A stretch of 64,000 bases of DNA, taken from the NCBI GenBank assembly GCA_034620365.1, contig JAQGEQ010000225.1, positions 434,001 through 498,000 on the forward strand, given 5' to 3'. Made by a program: the position numbers and the translations under genes. The DNA is from Pegea sp. RAD2-039. Lineage: Eukaryota > Chordata > Thaliacea > Salpida > Salpidae. Shown one piece after another: positions 15,230-34,800 of the stretch. The notes under the pieces were generated by a model. It was not told where the DNA came from. It did no database searches and saw only the letters and a list, made by a program, of their open reading frames with translations. Position 1 is the first letter of the stretch. Each line of letters opens with the position of its first letter.

Positions 15230-15278
15230 TAAAGATCTCATAATCACTACACTGTGATATCTGATAAATCATAGAAGA

Positions 15279-15556
15279 TCAGAAGATGCTCCTGATCGGA
15301 AGTTGCTCCTAATCAGTAGTTGCTCCTCATCAGCAGTTACTCCTCATCAGCAGTTACTCCTCATCAGCAGTTACTCCTAATCAGCAGTTACTCCTAATCA
15401 GCAGTTACTCCTAATCAGCAGTTGCTCCTAATCAGAAGGTGCTCCTAATCAGCAGTTGCTAACTCATCAGCAGTTGCTCCTAATCAGCAGTTGCTCCTAA
15501 TCAGAAGATACTCTTCATCAGCAGTTGCTCCTAATCAGCAGTTGCTAACTCATTTT
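15279..15556. repeat. 17-base tandem repeat (about 16 copies) just after the teneurin stop
   Basis: Imperfect head-to-tail copies of CAGTTACTCCTCATCAG, with C/A and A/G variants, begin about 50 bases after the stop codon, probably within the 3' UTR. Since 17 is not a multiple of three and the array follows the stop, it is non-coding. A few units differ (GCTAACTCATCAG, AGAAGATACTCTTCATCAG). Confidence 0.9.
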
Positions 15557-19674: not shown

Positions 19675-20499
19675 TTGAAAAAAAATAATTAAAGAAAGAA
19701 AATAACTTTCTGGTTGAAACTTTCTTAGTTTTTGAAATAAATATAACTTCTGTATAAATATCTAAATTAACTATAGAATAAATAAACATTTGCTACAATC
19801 AATAAAATTCTAATTTTTATCTTAAATATTAAATCTGTTTAACTTCAGCTTGAACAGAACAAGTGATATACAAATTATTAATTGTAAAATTTTCTTCCAA
19901 AATATAATCGTTTATCAGAAATGTGTTTAATAGAAGCTAGTAATGTTAAAAAATAAATTTGCTGTGTTTGAGTTAACAAGAAAACTAAATTAAACTAGTT
20001 TCAACAAAATAAAAAAATGTCAGTGGTTATTAGTTTAATCTGTTGTAGTTTTCTGAATTATATTCTATTATTTTAATATTTGCTTAATTTTTATCATAAA
20101 ATATTTCTAAAACTTCTGTTTATTGTGTATATTCTTAGAGAACAAGCTCTTGAAATATTCAAAGATCAAATGTTTATTCAAAACTCTAGCACTAACAGAG
20201 TCTCATATAAAAGCAAGTTTTAGGTTTAACAAATTTTTTAAATTATTTTATTCATTTGAACCCAACAATAATAACTAATAAAAGTTTTCTTTTATTTCAT
20301 CACTATAATTGATTTAGAAAATATAAACTATAATAATAATATGCACAATAAGAATATGAAAAATATAATGATGATAAAGCTTGCTTCAGCTAAGAACGGT
20401 CATTCTGGGTGTGTTATGAGTGATGATATTAAAAACAAATCAGAATTAGTGAGATACAAAATACAAGTTGTTAGGGTTCCTTTTTATCTTGGGGGCTAG

Positions 20500-21110
20500 T
20501 TTTCGACAAATACAATGGAAATGAAGGTGCTGAGTTCGCTTTCGACATCTTCCATGTCCTCTTGAACGTTAGCACCATAGCTAAAAATGTGTGTCTATTT
20601 TAGACTAATTTTTGTTCAAAAGTCTAACAGGCAGACAAAAATCGGTCTATCAGCATCTGTAGGTCTTTTACTGAATGCAACAATTGCTTCATCACGGATC
20701 AATCACGGATCTCATTTAACTTGATCTTTAGATATGATTTCTGAAAAGACTTTTGCCAGATCAAGAATGAACGCAGATTCCTTTAAAAGAAACATGATTT
20801 GTTTAAGTCATTGAGAAAAAGTCCTAAAGAGCGTTGGGACAAATCCTCATTTTATTTCGCTTTTGATTGTGGTAAATGGTTCGAGGCAGCTTCTATTGGA
20901 CATTAGTGCTCGTGTGAAATGATTTCACCATATCAAAGAGACTTGCCAATCTTCCTCAATATCGGGAACAAGGTAAAGAGCCTTATACAGGACAAAGTCG
21001 AGCTATAGATGAAGGATATATCCTAACAAGATGATGTCCAGCAAATACTAAAAGCGTGGGTGTCGCTAGGAAACTTTGTGCATGAAAAATACTTTTCCAA
21101 ATCATATTGA
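20500..21110 (-). pseudogene. Decayed coding relic, possibly LINE ORF1-like
   Basis: A tract noticeably richer in GC than its surroundings, lying directly outside the left arm of the inverted repeat. On the minus strand I read broken pieces such as LIRDEAIVAFSKRPTDADRP followed by IFVCLLDF, then past an AG, YGANVQEDMEDVESELSTFI ending at a stop. The phrase ADRPIFVCLLDF resembles the RNA-binding part of LINE ORF1 proteins, but stops and shifts interrupt every frame. Plus-strand frames also show pieces (ERWDKSSFYFAFDCGKWFEA). I cannot assign it firmly. Confidence 0.3.
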
Positions 21111-21837
21111 CAGACTTATAAAATCGATGGAACAAAATGGCTTTTAGAATATTTGACGGTTTTATTTAAGCAGATGGACAATAAACTTTCTTTTTATTAA
21201 GATGTAAAGAATAATTAAGTATTTTCATAAATATTAAATTTATCTACCAACTATATTTACTGGTTTTATTTCTAAATAAGAAATTTTCTAAATTGACTTT
21301 TCAATAAAGTTAAGTTTAAAAATATTTATGTCTACTAAAATTATTCACAAGTTCTCTTTGTAAAACAAAATCTAAATTTGAGAGCTTTTACACAAACATG
21401 ATATAAAACTACAACAAAAGCATTTTAATTTTAATACTGATATCATATCAATTGTAAATTAATCATATTGACATATTTATCGAGTGTAGGTAACTAATTA
21501 CTAAGACATATGACTAATATTTTAGCAACAATCACTACAGAATTATATAAGACGGATGATTTAAAGAATAGTTGAATTCAACATCTAGAAACATTTGATC
21601 AATAGAACAGTCTTTACTACAACTACTGCTCCACATCTTTAGCAGCAAAAGACATAATCAAAAGCACTGATCTTAGTAATTCCATAAAAGCCTTTCAAAA
21701 AGAAATCGAATAAAATGATTTTAAATTCTACAATTTATTTCATTTAGTAGTAAATAAAATAGCTGACTAGCCTGTGATGTTTGCTTTCAAACTAAATCAT
21801 TCTTACTTTCAAATATAAGCAATTAAGTTTATGAGCT

Positions 21838-21843
21838 TTTATT
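21838..21843 (-). terminator. Poly(A) signal of the left secreted-repeat gene
   Basis: AATAAA on the minus strand, 77 bases after the stop codon, identical to the right copy. Confidence 0.6.
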
Positions 21844-21920
21844 GTTAACAGATTTCATTTTAGTTTTAATATTATAGATTGACTTGAGAAGAATTTTGAA
21901 GTGATTATCCTTGAAGTGAT

Positions 21921-23156
21921 TTATTCAGTCTTTTCAGTTGCTTTTTCTGCAAATTAAAAAAATATTTTTTTTAGTATTTAGATTGAAGTTTTTCTTGAAA
22001 CTATTAATTAATCATTTACCTTCAACTTTAGCATCTTTGTTGTTTTCATCTCCCAAAACTCCAGCTGTAAGATCTACAGCACCACCTGCAAGATCTAAAA
22101 CTCCATGAGCAGCATGATGAAGAAGTCTTGAATATAAAATCATATTATCACAACTTAATTATTGTATAAAAAAATTTAATTGTGATTTAAAAAACGTTAA
22201 AATAAACGATCTTTGAATGTTTTACTAAAAACTAAAACATAAAAAATAAAGTTTAGTTTGAAAATGATGTAAAAAATACTTAAATCAAAACATTTAATCA
22301 CACTTTTATTCTTAAACTCACCCAATAAGTAGGTCATCATCTGAAACAGAAAATTGAAAATTATAATTCTTGAAATTCAACTTTTTTCATTTAGATTAAT
22401 TTTTAAACTTTAAAGAAGTTCTTTAAGACTTTTTTATTTTAGATTTATATTTTTCACTAAGAACATTAAAGGCAATTAGTGCCTAGCAATAAATCATTAA
22501 TGATCTTTAAATCTATTAGAAAAATTTCTATTTTTTGAAGCAATCATTTTATCTACTGAATGACTAAAGAGTTAAACAAATATTAACCATTTTCTTTATC
22601 TTGACTGACTGCAGGAACATTTTCTGATTCAACATCTTTATTTTCTTCATCTCCGTGTCTACGAAGGTCTTCAACATTTCTAGTAAAAAGTGGATCTAGA
22701 ACACGATGATGAAGACGATAGAAACGATGATCTTTGGAGAAAGGATATAATATTATTTAGATTATAGTCTTTTTTTGAAATTATTAATTAATCATTTACC
22801 TTCAACTTCAGCATCTTTGTTGTTTTCATCTCCCAAAACTCCAGCTGTAAGATCTACAGCACCGTGTGCAAGATTTAAAACTCCATGAGCAGCATGATGA
22901 AGAAGTCTTGAATATAAAATCATATTATCACAACTTAATTTCGATTTCAAACCAGATGTGGAAATAATCAGAAAGTAACTTACCCAATAAGAAAATCTTT
23001 TTGAGGTTCTAGAAAATAAGTTCAAGTTTAAATAACTAGTTGTACATATAATTATTTGTTGTTACCTTCTTCTTCAATATCCATGTCAGAAACAGGGAAT
23101 GCTTGAGCTGTGAAAACCACGAGGAAGAAAACTAGACAGAAAGTAACTTTTGACAT
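21921..23156 (-). CDS. Secreted repeat protein, 172 residues (left copy)
   Basis: Unrecognised gene, the mirror copy of the one at 29433. Exons on the minus strand are 23066-23156, 22984-23008, 22800-22906, 22588-22731, 22322-22340, 22020-22126 and 21921-21946. They keep phase and encode a signal peptide (MSKVTFCLVFFLVVFTAQA) and three repeat modules. It differs from the right copy in two residues that I noticed: LAHGAV instead of LAGGAV in module 1 (three adjacent base changes), and NVPA instead of NAPA in the middle module. One silent change sits in an arginine codon. The frame is intact, so both copies may be expressed. See the right copy for the architecture. Confidence 0.75.
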
Positions 23157-23218
23157 GATTTGATTTGATTTTTTCAAATTATTAAGTTGAATATGAGACT
23201 GGCTTCAATTTCTGGTCT

Positions 23219-23225
23219 TTTTATA
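23219..23225 (-). promoter_or_regulatory. TATA box of the left secreted-repeat gene
   Basis: TATAAAA on the minus strand, about 63 bases before the ATG and identical to the right copy. It lies inside the repeated arm, so both genes share the same core promoter. Confidence 0.6.
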
Positions 23226-23393
23226 GTTTTTAAAATTGTTTAAATTTGTTTTTTACAGGAAATTATAATTGTGTGGGTGTTGTGTTCAAACAATTTAGTT
23301 AGAGGAATTAAATGGAAATTTCAAACGAACTTCCAGATCAAAGTTTGAACAAATATCTTTGATCTGAAATTATTTACTGATACAAATATTCTA

Positions 23394-24884
23394 TCAAATT
23401 TTCATTTTCAATTAGCTGATGTTGTTTATTTACTAAGATTATTTATTTAAATCTCATTTTTTTTCTACAAGTTTTAATTTTCTTTGATAAGAATGAAGAC
23501 AAGGACAAGAGGTGATCTACCTGCAGATACTTCAACTAAAATCAAACGCGTTAGAGAAGATGAGAAGAAACTTCAAGAAAAGCATAAAAGAGAAAAAAAG
23601 TTTGGATATCTATAGAAAATTATGAGATTTGTTGATCTTTTTTATTCTTCGTTTTTTTCAGCAAATTAATACAACATCGTTTACTAAGAACAAATTGAAT
23701 CCAGGAAAAATCAAGATGAAGAAGTACTTTCAAAGTCTTTAATTTTCAGCAGGACAATACACCTCCGCAATATGCAAACAAACCTCAACCTCTGTCATCT
23801 TTCCACGTTTTTTAGCTACTCCTGCTTCCTGTCAACTTTTCCTAAACCTACTCACTTTGTTAAACTTCACAAAGTAGATTTAAAAGTGAACCAAATGTTT
23901 AAGATATTATGTGATAATAGCAGATAACGGAAATGAATATCATTTTTCATTTTTTCAAACTCTTTATTTCCATTTTTGTAGTCTTAGATTCGATGATTAA
24001 AATATCTTTCTTACATAATTTCTTTTCTTTCTTGAATGGCATCACGAAATAATGAAATATTATCAACCAATATGATGAATAGAAAATCAATTTTATAATA
24101 AGTATGATTAATCTTTATGGCACAAATACTACTGAAAGTTTTAATGTTCAACTGAAATTGAAACTTTTTCTAACCTACTTTCTAATCATTTTGATAACTT
24201 TCAGTGTCTAATGTTGTCCACGACTTATGCATCGCACCCCAGCCAAACCCTTATTGCCATGAAATATTTTCCATCTTTTATCTTTCTTGGTTTAAAGTGA
24301 CTACTCGTGATTTACTTTCATCACTGAACTTACGTAAGCCTGTCAGCCTCAGTTACCTGATTAGTGACTGGCAAGCAAGCTCTCTAATTTCTGAGAAAAT
24401 TAAAAAGGCTTATGTTATAACATAAGAGCAGTTAAAATAAAAATCTAATTTTTTTTGTAACTGTATATAAGAAATTTAATGAGATCTACATCCTCGACAA
24501 GATTTAACAAAATATATGATTTATTTCAGGTGAAGAAGAGTACTTTGTTTCTAATTCTTTTTTATTCAACCCTTGTGTGATGTTGGTTTTTGTAAAAAGA
24601 ATTTCGTATAATTAGTTGGCAATGTTTAATCAAATATTAAATCAATATAAAATAACTTGTTCAAATTTTAAGCATTTTCTAAATTATTTTTTAACTGGTT
24701 TTAAAAGCAAATTTTCTACTCTAGTTTCTGATTGCTTTTATTGTTCTTAGTGAAAAATATAAATCTGAAAATTATTTACTTATTAAAAAAGTGGAAGTTA
24801 TTTAAGTTATTTGGATTAAATTCTATTTGAATAAGGTATTTGAATAAGTAAGTATTTATATCAATAAAGATATTTTATTTATTT
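23394..24884. other. Spacer of the inverted repeat, left part
   Basis: Single-copy sequence between the left arm and the LINE. It holds a short charged reading frame at 23493-23612. It also holds a fragment near 24733-24768 (TTGTTCTTAGTGAAAAATAT..) matching the right arm at about 30112-30147, and an unexplained reading frame near 24204-24425. Confidence 0.5.
23493..23612 (+). CDS. Possible small highly charged protein
   Basis: An ATG opens a 39-codon frame beginning MKTRTRGDLPADTSTKIKRV and continuing lysine- and glutamate-rich. A GT inside AAGTTTGG and a TTTTTTTCAG acceptor near 23661 would allow splicing to a short basic tail. Composition is unlike the AT-rich noise around it. I do not recognise a family. 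It may equally be a fragment of a gene broken by the rearrangement. Confidence 0.25.
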
Positions 24885-25077
24885 ATTTATTTCAATAAAC
24901 GCGAAGGATGGTTACCTGAAAAGAGCACCTCTCACTAACACACATTCTCACAAATAACATCTATTTAGCCAAAAATATAGAAAGTAAAAGATATTACACA
25001 TGGCATTTCGATAGCACTCAAAGCATATAAAGGTGAACAACTACATGGAATGTTAATAATATAAGAAAGAAAAAAAA

Positions 25078-26924
25078 TCACAGTTTAGAAATGACAATGT
25101 TGGCAATATTATAACGGTTCAACTTCTGCTTGAACAATGCGAGTGACTTCGACATGGCAATGCCTGATGGCAGCTGATTCCATGTATTAATTGTACGGTA
25201 TGAGAAAAAATTTGCTCTGACCAATGTACTAGGTGATATAGGCTTACTAAGGTGTAATGGTTGTCGTCTGAGCTGATATAACTTGAAGGAAGGACTAATA
25301 GAAAAGAAATCATCAAACTGAATGTCAATTAAATTGTGGAGAATTTCAAAAATAAGAATTAAGTCGTATTTAATCCGTCGGATTTCCAAAGTATCTAAAT
25401 TAAAGAGACTGATACGATGTTTTTTTTAACTATCATATTTAATATTAAGTTTCCTACATACTAATCTTGTAAATGTGGCTTCAACAGGTTCGATTTTTTT
25501 GATATCACTAACTTGATATGGCATCCATGCACTGACATTGTATTCTAGAATTGGACGTACGTACAATTTGAAAAGATTGATAAAAAAGCATGGGTTCTTA
25601 GAACTAAAGGTCTTTATAATAAGGAAGACAAGGTTGATTGATTTTCCAAAGATTTTGGAAACATAATTTCGCCATTTAAAGTCAGATGATAGAGTAATGC
25701 CAAGGACCGAAGATATTCATTGAATAATAAATCTATTGATGGAGTATTGGTTCAAGCAATTTACAGCTGGTTTACGAGAAAAAGTTATAAGTACAGACTT
25801 TGTGGGCTGGATTCTGAGCTGCCAATTCGCAGACCAGTCTTCTACAGTGTGCAGTGTAGTTTGAAGTTTTGAAGGATTACAAGATAATAGCTTGATATCA
25901 TCTGCATACACAAACACTCTGACATCATCTACTGCTACTAATCTTCAGATGATGTCTTCGATGAAAATTAAAAAGAGAAGGGGACCCAGAACAGAACCCT
26001 GAGGAACAACACTAGTGATTTGACTAGAAGTAGATAAAGATCTTTCTACACGAGTTTGTTGGGTTCTACCTGATAGGTAATCTTCAATCCACTGTAAAAT
26101 AAAGCTGTTGATTTTTAGGTTTTTCAATACAGTAACGAGCTTAGTGTGTGGGACAGAATCAAACGCTTTAGCAAAATCGAGCTATACGATGTCACAGGAG
26201 TATTACTTTCATAATGGGATGTAAGTTCATTAAGAAAAGTGAGATGTTGAGTGAGGGAAGATCTCCGTTTCACAAAGCCATGTTGGACATCCGATATTAG
26301 ATGGTGCTCCATCAGATGACTGGTCATATGATTGTGAATGATATGCTCTTGAGTTCTGCAGATAACTGAAGTCAGCGAAACTGGTCTGTAGTTAAGTTCA
26401 GTGTTTCTGGGACCCTTTTTATGATTTGGAGTAATAATAGCTTTCTTTCAAATTTGTGGAACTCTTCCTCGCCTTAGAGTCATGTTAAAGAAAAGCAATA
26501 AAGATAGTGATAAAGAGGAATTATTTTTTCTTAAAAACAAAGCTGAGATCTGATCTGGGGTGTTGGAAACTGATGATTTTAAAGAAGAAATAGACTTAGA
26601 TACCATATCGACCGTTATGTCAAGATCTACCATCTCAGAGACATTTGTAAGAATGTCGGAGTAGGAGAGAGAAGGAGTATTATTATCATCGGTTATAAAA
26701 ACGCTATTAAATTGATTGTTTAGCAACTCGGCTATATTTTCTGGTTCCATCACAAGCTGGTCGCTGTTATCAAGTAAGGGAAGTATTTGAGATCTCGTCT
26801 TAAGCTTGCGATTTATGAAACCAGAAAACGTTTTATTGCAAGGTGAAGATAAAACTGCACTTTCTCTTCCCAAATAGAAATTAGAAATAGATTTCTTGTA
26901 AACTATACAAAGATCTTTGTACAT
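25078..26924 (-). pseudogene. LINE ORF2 reverse transcriptase (fragmented)
   Basis: Open pieces in shifting frames at 26924-26448, 26327-26124, 26127-25945, 25917-25717 and 25389-25078. They carry, in order, the linker, GFVKRRSSLTQHLTFLNEL, VPQGSVLGPLLFLIFIEDI, VFVYADDIKLLSC and the C-terminal TINTWNQLPSGIAMSKSLAL. The order and motifs are those of CR1-clade reverse transcriptases. The catalytic YADD is intact but the ORF is not. Confidence 0.85.
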
Positions 26925-27201
26925 TGATTTGATGGAAGGGTCTGTTTTAGTTTGTTTGTATAGGAGGTTTTTTAAATGTTGTAAATTCTTTAAATTTTTA
27001 GGAAAATGTGTTTTTTGTTGGCTCTATAGAAAGGTATTAATTTTTCGATTGGCTCTTTAACGATGTTAGTAAACCTTGAGTAAATAGTATTGATGTCTTC
27101 GGAAGAGTTGAAAACAGAAATTCAGTCTACATCTGATAGAAACTTGTTAATGCCATTATAATTTCCACAGTAAAAATTCCTTTTGCTTAAAGTTTTAATG
27201 T

Positions 27202-28092
27202 TCATAAAAAAGTTTGGTGGAGCTTGAATTCAATCATATTGTGATTGCATGTCAAAGCAAAAGGTTCTTTTTGATCAACGTCGATAATGTTCTCGGGTTT
27301 TGATGTGATAAGAAGATCCAAAGTATTATCACTAACTTGGGATAGAAAAGTAACCATCTGAGATAGATTATTGGCATTGAGGAAGCTTACAAAGGCATGA
27401 CTTAGAAAGGGTGAATTAGTATTATCGCTATCCAAGTTAAACAATTTTCCACTAAATGCTAAATTCGGGTTATTCCAATCAATTTTACCAAAATTAAAAT
27501 CCCCCAAGATATATAACTCAGGACACACAACAGTCTTCAGAGCCTTCAATAAGGCCTTAACAGTAACCTCATCATTAGTTTTAGAGGGTGGTAAGTAGGT
27601 ACATACAAAACGAGAAAATTTGGACCTTGAGTAATGAAAATCAAAGACGATAATCTCAAACCCTGGATATTTAATGGGATCGATCTGAATTCTAGAGATC
27701 TTGGGTGCAAGCGATATTTTGTAAATTACGCAAACACCGCCGCCTCTATCATACAGTCTATCACAACGCAAAACACAAAAAAGATTACCGTCAACCAGAA
27801 AAGAATCAGGATAAAACGGTTTCAACCAAGTTTCAGTAATAAAAACAAATGTGAAATCTTGGGAATGCAAAAGAGCTTTCAATTGAACATTTTTGTAAAT
27901 AATCGACCTTGCGTTGAAGAACATACCTAATGTGATAGAAGAATTATCTTTTTGATGCTTGTGAGATTTGATGATGGGCTTCTGTAAATTGATATCTTGG
28001 GTATTAACAATTGTGTCCGGAGAGAATGTGAAAAAAGAAGATGTGGGTTCAGTGATTATTTGCCACTTCCGTTTTTTGAAAAACATTGACAA
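27202..28092 (-). pseudogene. LINE ORF2 endonuclease domain
   Basis: A 296-codon open segment encoding an APE-type endonuclease, which nicks target DNA for retrotransposition. Visible motifs are MFFNARSI (catalytic asparagine), ITETWL (metal-binding glutamate), GGGVCVIY, LGDFNFGKIDWNN and, near the end, TCNHNMIEFKL, where the usual catalytic SDH has become CNH. Its start overlaps the end of ORF1. It is separated from the reverse transcriptase by stops. Confidence 0.85.
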
Positions 28093-29050
28093 TTCTTAAG
28101 GCCCATCGTGGACCTCGAACTTTGTATTTGAAATCAGTTGGTTGTTCCTTCTGATTTCGCTTATACGCTTCTTTTAGAAGACGCTTATTTTCTAAGCCAC
28201 CATTTTCACACATGTCACGTGCTACTTTAATGTGCTCGAATTTTTTCTCAAGCTTTAGCTTATACAGCTTGGCAAGAAACTTGCGTTTGTTCCAATTTTC
28301 CTGAAAGGATACTTTCAGCGGTCTTTGTTGATCTGAGCTTTTTGCTCAAAGTGTAGTCATTGATACTTTTGGAACGTCCACAAAATCAAGGCTTTGAGAG
28401 CACATTTGATTAAAAAACTCACTGTCATCATCTTTATCAGTCTCAGAGACATTAAAGATGATGACATTGTTTTCTCTGTCCTAACGGTCTAAAGTGAATT
28501 TTTTGTGCGTGTCGGTGACCTTCTTGGCAAGAAGCTGAGCCATGTTAGCATTTTTGTCGGAACTGGGATTACCGACCACCGAGGTTCATGTTACTTGTTT
28601 CTTTGTAGAGGCATTCAGTTCGTCCATTGATTTAGACAAACTAGATACCTTCTCATCAATCTTGGCAACATCTTTGGTAATTTCCGATTTAAGTTTTACT
28701 AATTCAGCAGATACAGATTTGCTGATGTCTGATAAAAGGTTTTCATCAGAATTGGTTGAGGGAGCTGTTGTGTCCACGGTTCTACATTTAATGCAAAACC
28801 ATTTAAATCCCATTTGCTTCATCTGGTTTTTATCAAACATATCATACATTTTCTTGCTCTCATCACTACAGGTGAGATGAAAGCAGGAGAGACATTTAAA
28901 GCATTCAATTACCGGATCTTCACCAGAGCAAATTTTATTACAGGATTGGCAATTATAATCTTGCTTTGATGAAGTCGGTTTTTCAGGATTTTTCTTTACA
29001 GTAGACCGTAAGGTCTTGCCACTTTTATGTGAATCCAGCATAGTTTTCAT
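28070..29050 (-). pseudogene. LINE ORF1: PHD-like zinc finger, coiled coil and RRM-like region (broken)
   Basis: The frame from 29050 to 28586 encodes a PHD-like finger (CQSCNKICSGEDPVIECFKC, then CFHLTC and WFCIKC) and a lysine/serine/glutamate coiled-coil stretch. After a frameshift it continues with DRENNVIIFNVSETDKDDD and RPLKVSFQENWNKRKFLAKL, which look like the RRM and C-terminal RNA-binding parts of LINE ORF1 proteins. At least two in-frame stops interrupt it. In active elements this protein binds the element RNA. Confidence 0.75.
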
Positions 29051-29363
29051 AAAAAATTTTTACTGTCACCAATCACAGTATATATACTATACAAATCACT
29101 TCCTATAAATTAACTATATCACAGCTTATAATCAGTTTTTCATTTAGAATATAACCTATAACCTGAAACTTATTCAAATAGAATGTATCATAAATTAGAA
29201 TATTTGTATCAGTAAATAATTTCAGATCAAAGATATTTGTTCAAACTTTGATCTGGAAGTTCGTTTGAAATTTCCATTTAATTCCTCTAACTAAATTGTT
29301 TGAACACAACACCCACACAATTATAATTTCCTGTAAAAAACAAATTTAAACAATTTTAAAAAC

Positions 29364-29370
29364 TATAAAA
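29364..29370 (+). promoter_or_regulatory. TATA box of the right secreted-repeat gene
   Basis: TATAAAA lies 63 bases before the ATG, at a spacing that fits a short 5' UTR of about 35-40 bases. Confidence 0.6.
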
Positions 29371-29432
29371 AGACCAGAAATTGAAGCCAGTCTCATATTC
29401 AACTTAATAATTTGAAAAAATCAAATCAAATC

Positions 29433-30668
29433 ATGTCAAAAGTTACTTTCTGTCTAGTTTTCTTCCTCGTGGTTTTCACAGCTCAAGCATTCCCTGTTTC
29501 TGACATGGATATTGAAGAAGAAGGTAACAACAAATAATTATATGTACAACTAGTTATTTAAACTTGAACTTATTTTCTAGAACCTCAAAAAGATTTTCTT
29601 ATTGGGTAAGTTACTTTCTGATTATTTCCACATCTGGTTTGAAATCGAAATTAAGTTGTGATAATATGATTTTATATTCAAGACTTCTTCATCATGCTGC
29701 TCATGGAGTTTTAAATCTTGCAGGTGGTGCTGTAGATCTTACAGCTGGAGTTTTGGGAGATGAAAACAACAAAGATGCTGAAGTTGAAGGTAAATGATTA
29801 ATTAATAATTTCAAAAAAAGACTATAATCTAAATAATATTATATCCTTTCTCCAAAGATCATCGTTTCTATCGTCTTCATCATCGCGTTCTAGATCCACT
29901 TTTTACTAGAAATGTTGAAGACCTTCGTAGACACGGAGATGAAGAAAATAAAGATGTTGAATCAGAAAATGCTCCTGCAGTCAGTCAAGATAAAGAAAAT
30001 GGTTAATATTTGTTTAACTCTTTAGTCATTCAGTAGATAAAATGATTGCTTCAAAAAATAGAAATTTTTCTAATAGATTTAAAGATCATTAATGATTTAT
30101 TGCTAGGCACTAATTGCCTTTAATGTTCTTAGTGAAAAATATAAATCTAAAATAAAAAAGTCTTAAAGAACTTCTTTAAAGTTTAAAAATTAATCTAAAT
30201 GAAAAAAGTTGAATTTCAAGAATTATAATTTTCAATTTTCTGTTTCAGATGATGACCTACTTATTGGGTGAGTTTAAGAATAAAAGTGTGATTAAATGTT
30301 TTGATTTAAGTATTTTTTACATCATTTTCAAACTAAACTTTATTTTTTATGTTTTAGTTTTTAGTAAAACATTCAAAGATCGTTTATTTTAACGTTTTTT
30401 AAATCACAATTAAATTTTTTTATACAATATTTAAGTTGTGATAATATGATTTTATATTCAAGACTTCTTCATCATGCTGCTCATGGAGTTTTAGATCTTG
30501 CAGGTGGTGCTGTAGATCTTACAGCTGGAGTTTTGGGAGATGAAAACAACAAAGATGCTAAAGTTGAAGGTAAATGATTAATTAATAGTTTCAAGAAAAA
30601 CTTCAATCTAAATACTAAAAAAAATATTTTTTTAATTTGCAGAAAAAGCAACTGAAAAGACTGAATAA
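29433..30668 (+). CDS. Secreted repeat protein, 172 residues (right copy)
   Basis: Unrecognised gene. Exons are 29433-29523, 29581-29605 (25 bases), 29683-29789, 29858-30001, 30249-30267 (19 bases), 30463-30569 and 30643-30668; phases agree and total 519 bases. The product has a clear signal peptide ending near TAQA, then three modules. Modules 1 and 3 are almost identical and begin LIGGLLHHAAHGVL, followed by a glycine/alanine-rich hydrophobic stretch and GDENNKDA. The middle module is diverged and basic (HRFYRLHHRVLDPLFTRNVE, then RRHGDEENKDVE). Each ends in an acidic linker. There are no cysteines after the signal peptide. Architecture resembles precursors of helical peptides, but this is inference from shape alone. 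Exon 4 could instead end translation at GGT TAA (30001-30006). Confidence 0.78.
29652..30593 (+). repeat. Internal duplication within the secreted-repeat gene
   Basis: The block 29652-29813 (intron end, exon 3 and following intron start) recurs almost identically at 30432-30593, including non-coding flanks such as GTGATAATATGATTTTATAT and the donor side GTAAATGATTAATTAATA. The exon was therefore copied as DNA together with intron sequence, recently enough that introns still match. The mirror arm has the same duplication. Confidence 0.9.
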
Positions 30669-30745
30669 ATCACTTCAAGGATAATCACTTCAAAATTCTT
30701 CTCAAGTCAATCTATAATATTAAAACTAAAATGAAATCTGTTAAC

Positions 30746-30751
30746 AATAAA
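30746..30751 (+). terminator. Poly(A) signal of the right secreted-repeat gene
   Basis: AATAAA 77 bases after the stop codon, within AACAATAAAAGC. Confidence 0.6.
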
Positions 30752-31864
30752 AGCTCATAAACTTAATTGCTTATATTTGAAAGTAAGAATGATTTAGTTT
30801 GAAAGCAAACATCACAGGCTAGTCAGCTATTTTATTTACTACTAAATGAAATAAATTGTAGAATTTAAAATCATTTTATTCGATTTCTTTTTGAAAGGCT
30901 TTTATGGAATTACTAAGATCAGTGCTTTTGATTATGTCTTTTGCTGCTAAAGATGTGGAGCAGTAGTTGTAGTAAAGACTGTTCTATTGATCAAATGTTT
31001 CTAGATGTTGAATTCAACTATTCTTTAAATCATCCGTCTTATATAATTCTGTAGTGATTGTTGCTAAAATATTAGTCATATGTCTTAGTAATTAGTTACC
31101 TACACTCGATAAATATGTCAATATGATTAATTTACAATTGATATGATATCAGTATTAAAATTAAAATGCTTTTGTTGTAGTTTTATATCATGTTTGTGTA
31201 AAAGCTCTCAAATTTAGATTTTGTTTTACAAAGAGAACTTGTGAATAATTTTAGTAGACATAAATATTTTTAAACTTAACTTTATTGAAAAGTCAATTTA
31301 GAAAATTTCTTATTTAGAAATAAAACCAGTAAATATAGTTGGTAGATAAATTTAATATTTATGAAAATACTTAATTATTCTTTACATCTTAATAAAAAGA
31401 AAGTTTATTGTTCATCTGCTTAAATAAAACCGTCAAATATTCTAAAAGCCATTTTGTTCCATCGATTTTATTTGATTATAAATTTATTAATTATTTTTTT
31501 ATTTCTCAAAGTCAGTGAAATTTTAAATTTTAGAATAATGTTTAACCGTAATGTAAAAAATACCACTAAAATTATTTTAAACTAATATAAAAAAAGCAGA
31601 AATTGTTTTTCTAAATAACGAATCAATTAATTTCTCAGCTAGCACTAAATGTGATTCATTTATTTTAAAAAGATTACTAAAAAAGATGACTTTTTAGATT
31701 TTATTATATTTTTAATCTCTTTTATTATTTTTTAATATTTATATAATTTTTACAAAAAAAATTTCATATTTGAATAATTTCAAAACAAAGTTTATAGTTT
31801 TAGTTTAACTTATCAAATATTCTAACTTTTATTTTTATTATAGATTTATAATTTTTTATTCAAT

Positions 31865-34800
31865 ATGTTAAAAAATGTTTTAAAATTTGGAAGAAGACGA
31901 AATGATATTCTTTCTAAAGTTTCTAGTCGATATTATGGAGCTGTAGACAACTTTAGAGCCGTTATATTTGATATGGGAGGTGTTGTCTTGCCTAGCCCTT
32001 TTCCAATGACAATTGGTTAGAATTATTTAATTTTTTAAATTGCTTTTTAGTCAAGAAAATAGTTTTAATGTTTTTCAACCTTAAATGAAAATATAAAACC
32101 TTGTTGGTTTTATAATATTATAAGTTTTTATTTGCTTTTTTTTTTGTTTATTGTTACTTTTAAAGTAATGGTAATTGTTCTTATAAGCATATAGTTGTAA
32201 GTTTTTTAATTATTTTGATGTTATTGAGTTTTAATAAGTTTATTTTTTAGTTTTTAAAAACCTTTTATTAAATGTATAAAATTATGAAATAATCACCTAT
32301 TTCCAGCAATAGATTAATTATTATTTTTAACTTGCAAAGAGTATGAGGCAGAGAAGAAGATACCAGCTGGTACTATTTGGAAAGCAATCAAATTTTATGG
32401 TAGCAAAGGTTCTTGGCCTAAACTTGAGATCGGAGAGTTAGATGCAGATGAATTTGGAATAGTGTTTAGTGAGGAATGTTCACAAGTAGTAAGTATCATT
32501 AACAGTTTTTTTTGAATTTTAACTTAAAATTTATCTTGATTTTATCTTTTTTTGTCTAACAACACCAAGTTTGAAAGAACTTGTTTTACTGATAACTCTT
32601 ATATTCAGTGGTTGTGGGGTGATTATAACTTGCTTTTTGCCAGCAAACGCAGTGAAGTATATAAAAAATATGTCCATATAATTACATCAACATCTACCAC
32701 CTCTTTTCAAATTTTGATTTAAATCAAAAAATAAATTATGATTCATGTAATTTCCTTGACAAGTGGTTGATAACAATACTCTTTTTAATTTATATTTCAT
32801 AAAATCATTATTAGTATATTGCTATTATTGTTAAATTTTATTTAATGAAATTAATTTCTTTTGAAATTGTAAATTAGTTAAAATTGAAGATATTTATTAA
32901 TATTTACGATAATAGTTTGTAGAAAATGAGTTGGTAGTTTTATTACCTCTTTCAAAATTACTACACGAGTTCAAACTTACCACAAGCCAAATTTGTTACA
33001 TGATAATAGTTAATAACAAGTGATATATGCCACTTTCTTCACTTATCTTTAAATTTTTGATTCACAATTTTTATACCTCTGCAGTATTTCTATTCTTTTT
33101 ATATCAATTACTAAATTGTGATACTTAAGACCTTTTTATTATCTTTCAGCTCATATAGCTGTAGAATTTGTCACTCGCAGCCATGCGTTGAATAAATCAA
33201 TCAACTTTAGATTATTAAAAGTTGTTTTTGATTTAATAGTGTGTCATTTGAAAATTATATCAAATCTTAAACTGTTCTTCTTGATTAGGCGGATCAACAA
33301 GTGGATGTTAGAGACTTCCTACCTTATCTAGAACAAGGAATGTCCAATCCAATCAAAGAAGTCTTAGAAGCAGTGAAATGTCTCAAACAGCAAGGATATA
33401 AAACAGCTCTTCTCACTAACAATTGGAAAAAATCAGACGGAAGCACCTTACTACCCTTCGATACCTCTGATTTCGACGTGGTAACTTAGATATCATCTTA
33501 TCCAACTTCAGTTTATGTCTTTGTGATTTTGTAGATCGTTGAGTCTGCGGTTGAAGGCATCAACAAACCAAGTCCTCCAATCTTTACTTTATGTCTTAAT
33601 AAATTAGGAGTTGGATCCCATGAAGCGATCTTTCTGGATGATATAACTTCAAATCTTCAGGCTGCAAAAAGTTCTGGAATCTTTTCTATTCAAGTAAAAT
33701 TCGTCGCTTATATCGAGTTAGATACAAGTGGTTTGTGTTTAGGTTGAAGATGTTTTTGTGGCTATTAATGAGCTAGAAGAAAGATTACAAGTGAAGCTAA
33801 CAGAAGAGAAAAGAGGAACTTTACCTGTCAGCAAGGAGATGCAAATTAACATGACGAATCTTAATAAATATTTTCAAGTAAATGAGTGAAAATTTAGTAA
33901 TCTAATTATCAAAATGTTTCTTGTAAAATTGTATAATTTGTAGCAACTCTTATAGAATCAATTAGAAACAAAAGTCGAACATGAAGCTGAAATCTTCCAA
34001 TATTCTCACTGTCCTTCAAATCCAACTTATCTCATCGATTTTGGTCCAAATCATAAAAATATTGTCCTAAGAACAAGTCATCATCGGTCCAAAAGATCCC
34101 ATGTAATTGCGCGAGAATACAGGTGATTTACCATCAGTATTTTGGTGTTGATGTTTCAATGACATTTTTATAGAGTCATGAACGCTGTCAGTAAATTTGG
34201 AGTTAAAATTCCGAAGCTAGTATCCTTATGTGAGGACTTAGATGTCATTGGAAGACCATTTTATCTTTCCGAGCAAGTCATTGGTAATATTTTGAAGGTA
34301 ATAGTTTAATGATTATTAGTTGAACTAATCACTCAATAATACGAGAAATAACCAACAAAATTAATTGTGCTTTAAATACTTTCACTTTAATTACAACTGA
34401 CTTTGAAATCTAAATAATCTCCGAGATCAAACACAGCTTGCTCAACACTTTTGATCTGTGTAAATCTTAAGATACCTCTTATGATAAAAACGATAAGATC
34501 ACAATCATAAGAGGTAGAAATAAACCTATCATCAAGTTTTGTGGAAATTTCAACCAGTAAAGAAAGATTATTCAAATTTTACCCACAAAATCTGTCAATT
34601 TTCAGGATACTTCATTGCCTGGAATGATGCCAAGGACAAGAACTACCATCTACAATGAGATGATCACTACTTTAAGCCAGATACACAACATCAATATATC
34701 AAGTGCTCAACTAGATGACTTCGGTAAAAAAGGTGAGATAATAAAATCATTTTTGATTCAATTTCTAATCTAATTTGAAAACCAGGAAATTTTATGAAAA

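Follow-up and report, generated by a model that had tools for sequence, protein, structure and literature searches.

Arrangement of the Locus

We analyzed a stretch of 64,000 nucleotides, referred to here as the window, from Pegea sp. RAD2-039 (assembly GCA_034620365.1, contig JAQGEQ010000225.1, positions 434,001 to 498,000). Within the window, two arms that are reverse-complement copies of one another flank a spacer of ~5.8 kb, and each arm carries one copy of a gene for a small, putatively secreted protein. Most of the length of the spacer is taken up by a single long interspersed nuclear element (LINE). The arms probably originated in a very recent inverted duplication at the DNA level, beside a LINE that was already old. 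The features of the two arms, in window coordinates, are as follows.

21118..23393, minus strand: left arm of the inverted duplication, with its gene on the minus strand (self-comparison)
29196..31471, plus strand: right arm of the inverted duplication, with its gene on the plus strand (self-comparison)
21921..23156, minus strand: left gene copy, with the same exon structure as the right copy (translation)
29433..30668, plus strand: right gene copy, seven coding exons, 172 amino acids (sequence-based model)
29433-29523, 29581-29605, 29683-29789, 29858-30001, 30249-30267, 30463-30569, 30643-30668, plus strand: coding exons of the right copy (model)
29364..29369, plus strand: TATAAA, 69 bp upstream of the ATG of the right copy (motif match only)
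30746..30751, plus strand: AATAAA downstream of the stop codon of the right copy (motif match only; ATTAAA also at 30719)
29649..29838, plus strand: 190-bp repeat with exon 3, with a second copy around exon 6 (~30429-30617) at 94-96% identity

Using blastn to compare the window with itself, positions 21118-23393 and 29196-31471 were aligned over 2276 bp each at 99.692% identity, with 7 mismatches, 0 gaps, and an E value of 0. The total difference between the arms is thus 0.31%. The seven base differences represent five events: four single-base changes at 21177/31412, 22159/30430, 22617/29972, and 22703/29886, and a change of three neighboring bases at 22864-22866/29725-29723. At each end of the arms, the very next base outside no longer matches, and the innermost 527 bp, up to the arm end, contain no differences. 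Coding exons account for 23% of the arm and contain three of the five events (P = 0.08); at this value an enrichment in coding sequence is not claimed. Among the first 60 matches of the self-comparison, repeats other than the arms' internal exon repeat are at 74-86% identity.

The window belongs to a contig of 889,848 bp in a genome of 105.7 Mb and 387 contigs, the longest contig seen being 6.1 Mb. A search of this genome with the arm returned two full copies and no third (all 3 candidates scored). The first-pass annotation of the window, which was made from the sequence alone and had proposed looking for more copies, described a near-perfect inverted duplication with about half a dozen differences, no indel, and genes pointing away from each other; all of this is borne out. 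Its outer bounds (21117 and 31472) were each one base too wide.

The right gene copy has GT..AG introns and an open frame of 519 nt, corresponding to 172 codons and a stop. The left copy has the same translated length, and none of the 7 differences is located on a splice site. The earlier description of two intact copies stands, with both frames open over 172 codons. Relative to the right protein, the left protein has H53 for G and V113 for A, and there is one synonymous change.

The LINE as an Internal Clock

The features of the spacer are listed below.

23394..24119: part of the spacer with no other match among the matches listed (best 40 of 2442 candidates)
24123..24605: spacer repeat, for which the six closest copies listed (91-96%) are all on the same contig (best 40 of 2442 candidates)
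24686..24772, plus strand: decayed fragment resembling intron 4, 43 bp at 91% and ~76% over 87 bp (alignment)
24874..29184, minus strand: non-long-terminal-repeat (non-LTR) retrotransposon (LINE) with broken frames (5' end at 29184; start at the 3' side approximate)

In the selected frames of the LINE, pieces of an endonuclease and a reverse transcriptase were found above the Pfam cut-off, and a PHD-like piece was found below it. The full-length 5' end of the element is at 29184, 11 bp short of the right arm. This end was defined by an alignment of 25 rows, from which 8 minus-strand loci cut at the wrong end were set aside, leaving 17 with the window included. The terminal sequence AATAGAAT is the same in 12 of the 16 rows other than the window and is present with variants in 4. 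Beyond this point the rows diverge, save for two pairs that share a flank (L018/L020 and L023/L029). A target-site duplication was sought at the window copy and at two others, and none was convincing. The 16 bases at the 5' terminus of the LINE occur again, inverted, at 24820-24835, just past the 3' end of the element, either by chance or as a trace of insertion.

For the dating of the LINE, 13 of the 29 loci covered the 2.4 kb used, and the 16 incomplete ones were dropped. In this sample, 47 of the 2379 columns (2.0%) have a substitution that is strictly private to the window copy, which also has 3 private indels; a strictly private change could also predate the insertion by arising in an unsampled sister lineage. 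The window copy departs from the commonest base in 43 additional cases, and its terminal branch was determined to be 0.041 (4.1% by tree) with the same 13 loci. The closest relatives with nearly the full span are 92-94% identical, and one is 95% identical over 750 bases (best 40 of 857 candidates).

If the arms had split when the LINE inserted, about 90-185 differences between them would be expected, and 7 were observed. The private divergence of the LINE (2.0%, or 4.1% by tree) against the 0.31% of the arms indicates that the arms were duplicated, or last homogenized, long after the LINE landed. By this measure, the age of the insertion is estimated at about 13 to 26 times that of the duplication of the arms or of their last homogenization. 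The first-pass annotation had placed the arrival of the LINE in the spacer after the duplication. Under simple recency that order is reversed, with the LINE first and older by this factor; the order originally given would hold only if the arms had been maintained by conversion.

Origin of the Inverted Arms

A very recent origin had been the leading option from the start, and the arm difference of 0.31% against 2.0-4.1% for the LINE upholds it. We also favor recency on the basis of the sharp outer end of the arms and their difference-free innermost 527 bp. The outer flanks have no similarity to one another, with an alignment score of 15.0 against a shuffle mean of 16.4 that was reached by 144 of 200 shuffles. 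Since the introns are retained in both copies, the second gene is not a retrocopy.

Under the recent duplication, one block of 2276 bp with the complete gene, its upstream region, its introns, and its polyadenylation-type signals would have been copied at the DNA level. The inverted copy would have been placed ~5.8 kb away at a recent time, when the old LINE already filled most of the present spacer. The most likely mechanism would be a template switch, close to the 5' end of the LINE, at a replication fork that had stalled or broken. The outcome would be two intact, divergently transcribed copies of a small secreted-protein gene, with the gene dosage potentially doubled.

Four observations weigh against this explanation. 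A gap of 11 bp separates the right arm from the 5' end of the LINE, a near coincidence for which recency by itself offers no explanation. The spacer contains the decayed remnant resembling intron 4, which may be left over from an earlier duplication; its sequence is found at three places in the genome, namely the two arms and 24686-24772 (all 3 candidates scored), and in the spacer it lies in the orientation of the right copy. When the LINE is excised, the inner flanks of the arms align with a score of 39 against a shuffle mean of 28.6, a score that was reached by 5 of 200 simple shuffles and by none of 58 other windows, which were not AT-matched. Finally, the three-base codon difference resembles the result of a small conversion event within the gene, with a tract no longer than about 65 bp.

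It is conceivable, if unlikely, that the palindrome is instead at least as old as the LINE and that its arms have been kept alike by gene conversion between the inverted copies. Inverted repeats at a short distance are good partners for conversion. The LINE would then have inserted within the right arm or next to it and would mark the inner limit of conversion, and this would fit the start of the right arm so close to the LINE. The resemblance of the inner flanks is a less secure argument for such an origin. With dinucleotide shuffles the same score was reached by 14 of 300 at 300 bp, and by 99, 64, and 10 of 300 at 150, 600, and 1000 bp, respectively. Of the control windows, 49 of 1750 overall attained it, as did 47 of the 738 that were AT-matched; in an anchored test, 5 of 114 did so. 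The signal between the LINE-excised flanks is faint; we do not count it as homology, although some older similarity at the inner ends may exist. The absence of similarity between the outer flanks and of any difference in the innermost 527 bp also speaks against an old palindrome.

The codon at 22864-22866 can be followed further through the exon repeat within the gene. At this codon, exon 3 of the right copy is identical to exon 6 of both arms, and exon 3 of the left copy differs. The three adjacent changes suggest a single short conversion from exon 6, the alternative being a multi-base mutation in the left arm. The difference shows at most conversion from exon to exon and not from arm to arm. 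A fuller version of the conversion model, which we regard as distinctly improbable, would have an old palindrome, with a conversion tract bounded by the LINE, preserve a lineage-specific secreted protein of three modules whose repeated exons also trade sequence with one another.

We consider it very unlikely that the second arm is a product of the assembly, with two haplotypes or a chimeric fold-back read joined into a false copy. The difference between the arms is at a level that alleles could show, but the outer flanks and the part of the spacer outside the LINE are unlike between the two sides. Searches were made for the flanks and the spacer: no second copy of spacer bases 1-726 was found among the matches listed (best 40 of 2442 candidates), and none was listed for bases 1-1211 of a second query (best 40 of 346 candidates). 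A third query returned only diverged repeats at 65-84%, with 37 bases at 95% (best 40 of 104 candidates). Fold-back read artefacts have little or no spacer, unlike the 5.8 kb found here, and the length of the 889,848-bp contig, together with the 6.1 Mb of the longest one seen, suggests an assembly from long reads. The folding of two haplotypes, which the first-pass annotation had listed among its options, fits poorly, because the two sides differ and there is no third full copy of the arm (all 3 candidates scored).

Inverted arms around a spacer would also be expected of a mobile element whose terminal inverted repeats are 2.3 kb long and carry the gene in each end, but such an element is highly improbable, given that there is only one such structure in the 105.7 Mb genome, that no target-site duplication is visible by eye at the outer ends, and that the only element genes recognized inside, in the selected frames, are those of the LINE. 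A DNA transposon with long terminal inverted repeats was accordingly rejected as a candidate, since several copies would be expected in the genome and one structure was found.

The Encoded Protein

The start of the 172-residue protein is signal-peptide-like as judged by eye, and the protein is hence putatively secreted, in line with the secreted protein named in the first-pass annotation. Residues 22-172 have an isoelectric point (pI) of 4.54 and contain no cysteine. They form an acidic chain in which three related modules follow one another, and in each module an acidic linker comes after a stretch that is hydrophobic or amphipathic. Module 1 (exons 2 and 3) and module 3 (exons 5 and 6) have 37 of 40 aligned residues in common in the right copy, and the 190-bp DNA repeat that underlies them takes in flanking intron. 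Module 2 (exon 4) has an ending of the GDExNKDxxxE type that is common to modules 1 and 3, and the scores of its alignments with them were reached by 0 of 1000 and 4 of 1000 shuffles. The sequence thus shows that the protein grew earlier through duplication of an exon pair within the gene.

A cationic antimicrobial peptide precursor was considered for the histidine-containing, helix-like stretches and was rejected on the pI of 4.54 for residues 22-172. When stretches of 18 residues were taken, those of modules 1 and 3 were neutral to acidic, and one stretch of module 2 reached a charge of up to +3.

The protein was searched against a collection of proteins predicted from public genomes and metagenomes, and none of 94 candidates was a match at E values up to 10. 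With the residues of one exon as the query, no candidate was found in the same collection. The Pfam search gave a single match at the level of chance (E of 7.9), and in the PDB search the five matches returned were weak (E values of 0.96 or worse) and were all to ribosomal protein L29. The earlier description of the gene family as unrecognized is therefore confirmed, as no relative above chance was found in the protein collection, Pfam, or PDB, where predictions in the collection that are broken by introns could escape by their length. Within its own genome, where every one of the 8 candidates was scored, all 8 matches to the protein fell on exons belonging to the two copies. A teneurin piece of the window is 91% identical to a protein in the collection that originates from an ENA contig of 857 bases, and close kin are thus partly represented there. 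Relatives of the orphan protein may exist in unsampled animals.

Surroundings of the Duplication

Elsewhere in the window, teneurin and HLH domains were found above the cut-off. An APH domain and weak matches to HAD were also present, and this set of domains points to an animal genome. The teneurin gene is closely followed, at 15278-15553, by a short tandem array with a period near 17 bases (by eye). An old dispersed repeat lies just to the left of the left arm at 20364-20971, with 65-82% identity to copies across many contigs and a 37-base match at 95% (best 40 of 104 candidates).

Another repeat family is found at about 32779-33204, and its five closest listed copies (89-96%) are on the same contig as the window (best 40 of 346 candidates). 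For this family and the one at 24123-24605, the more distant listed copies are elsewhere and, where the match exceeds 100 bases, have about 70-81% identity. When a piece of contig C52 was used as a control query, the four matches ranking directly after its self-match were also on C52; local clustering of repeats is thus seemingly not special to the contig of the window.

A conserved motif of ribosomal RNA (rRNA) was found at four places in the genome, and the two that were scanned were both confirmed as eukaryotic-type rRNA. Near the end of contig C1 (L074:1-630), a long AT-rich array of short repeats runs into the middle of a small-subunit rRNA gene, and this junction is either a truncated unit of ribosomal DNA or an edge of the assembly.

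Comparison with Known Systems and Significance

The structure itself is of an ordinary, already known type, and the orphan protein is the more curious of the two. Among structures with mirror-image arms, the palindromes of the human Y chromosome are sex-linked.

In Caenorhabditis elegans, adjacent inverted duplicates are a common form in which young duplicates are born, and 39% of the small duplications are complete (PMC4546093). The Pegea arms resemble the cohort of C. elegans duplicates with no synonymous divergence (KS = 0) in being recent, on the same chromosome, adjacent, and inverted, and here the copying was also DNA-mediated with the introns retained. They differ in that the Pegea copy is complete, compared with 39% of the small duplications in the nematode (PMC4546093).

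GSTT2 in the African great apes is a tandem inverted duplication with 99.4% identity in humans, for which conversion is documented (PMC3375281). The likeness to the arms described here is that of an inverted gene pair with very similar copies. The GSTT2 duplication is 29 kb in size and at least 7 million years old (PMC3375281), whereas for the Pegea arms conversion and an older age are candidate readings. Palindromes have also been described in the genome of Folsomia candida, where those of the human Y chromosome are cited alongside (PMC5490193). Mirror-image arms with paired genes are common to these examples and to the Pegea locus; the former have several genes per arm or a known sex chromosome, and the latter has one short gene per arm.

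If the duplication is simply recent, we have here a gene duplication caught just after its birth, with the LINE as an internal clock that places the duplication after the insertion. If the likeness of the arms is instead due to conversion, the locus would be a small and tractable palindrome that keeps a gene pair uniform. Should exchange operate both from exon to exon in the gene and from arm to arm across the palindrome, it would constitute a unit of concerted evolution at two levels. The repeat structure of the orphan gene shows, in addition, that it grew through the duplication of exons.

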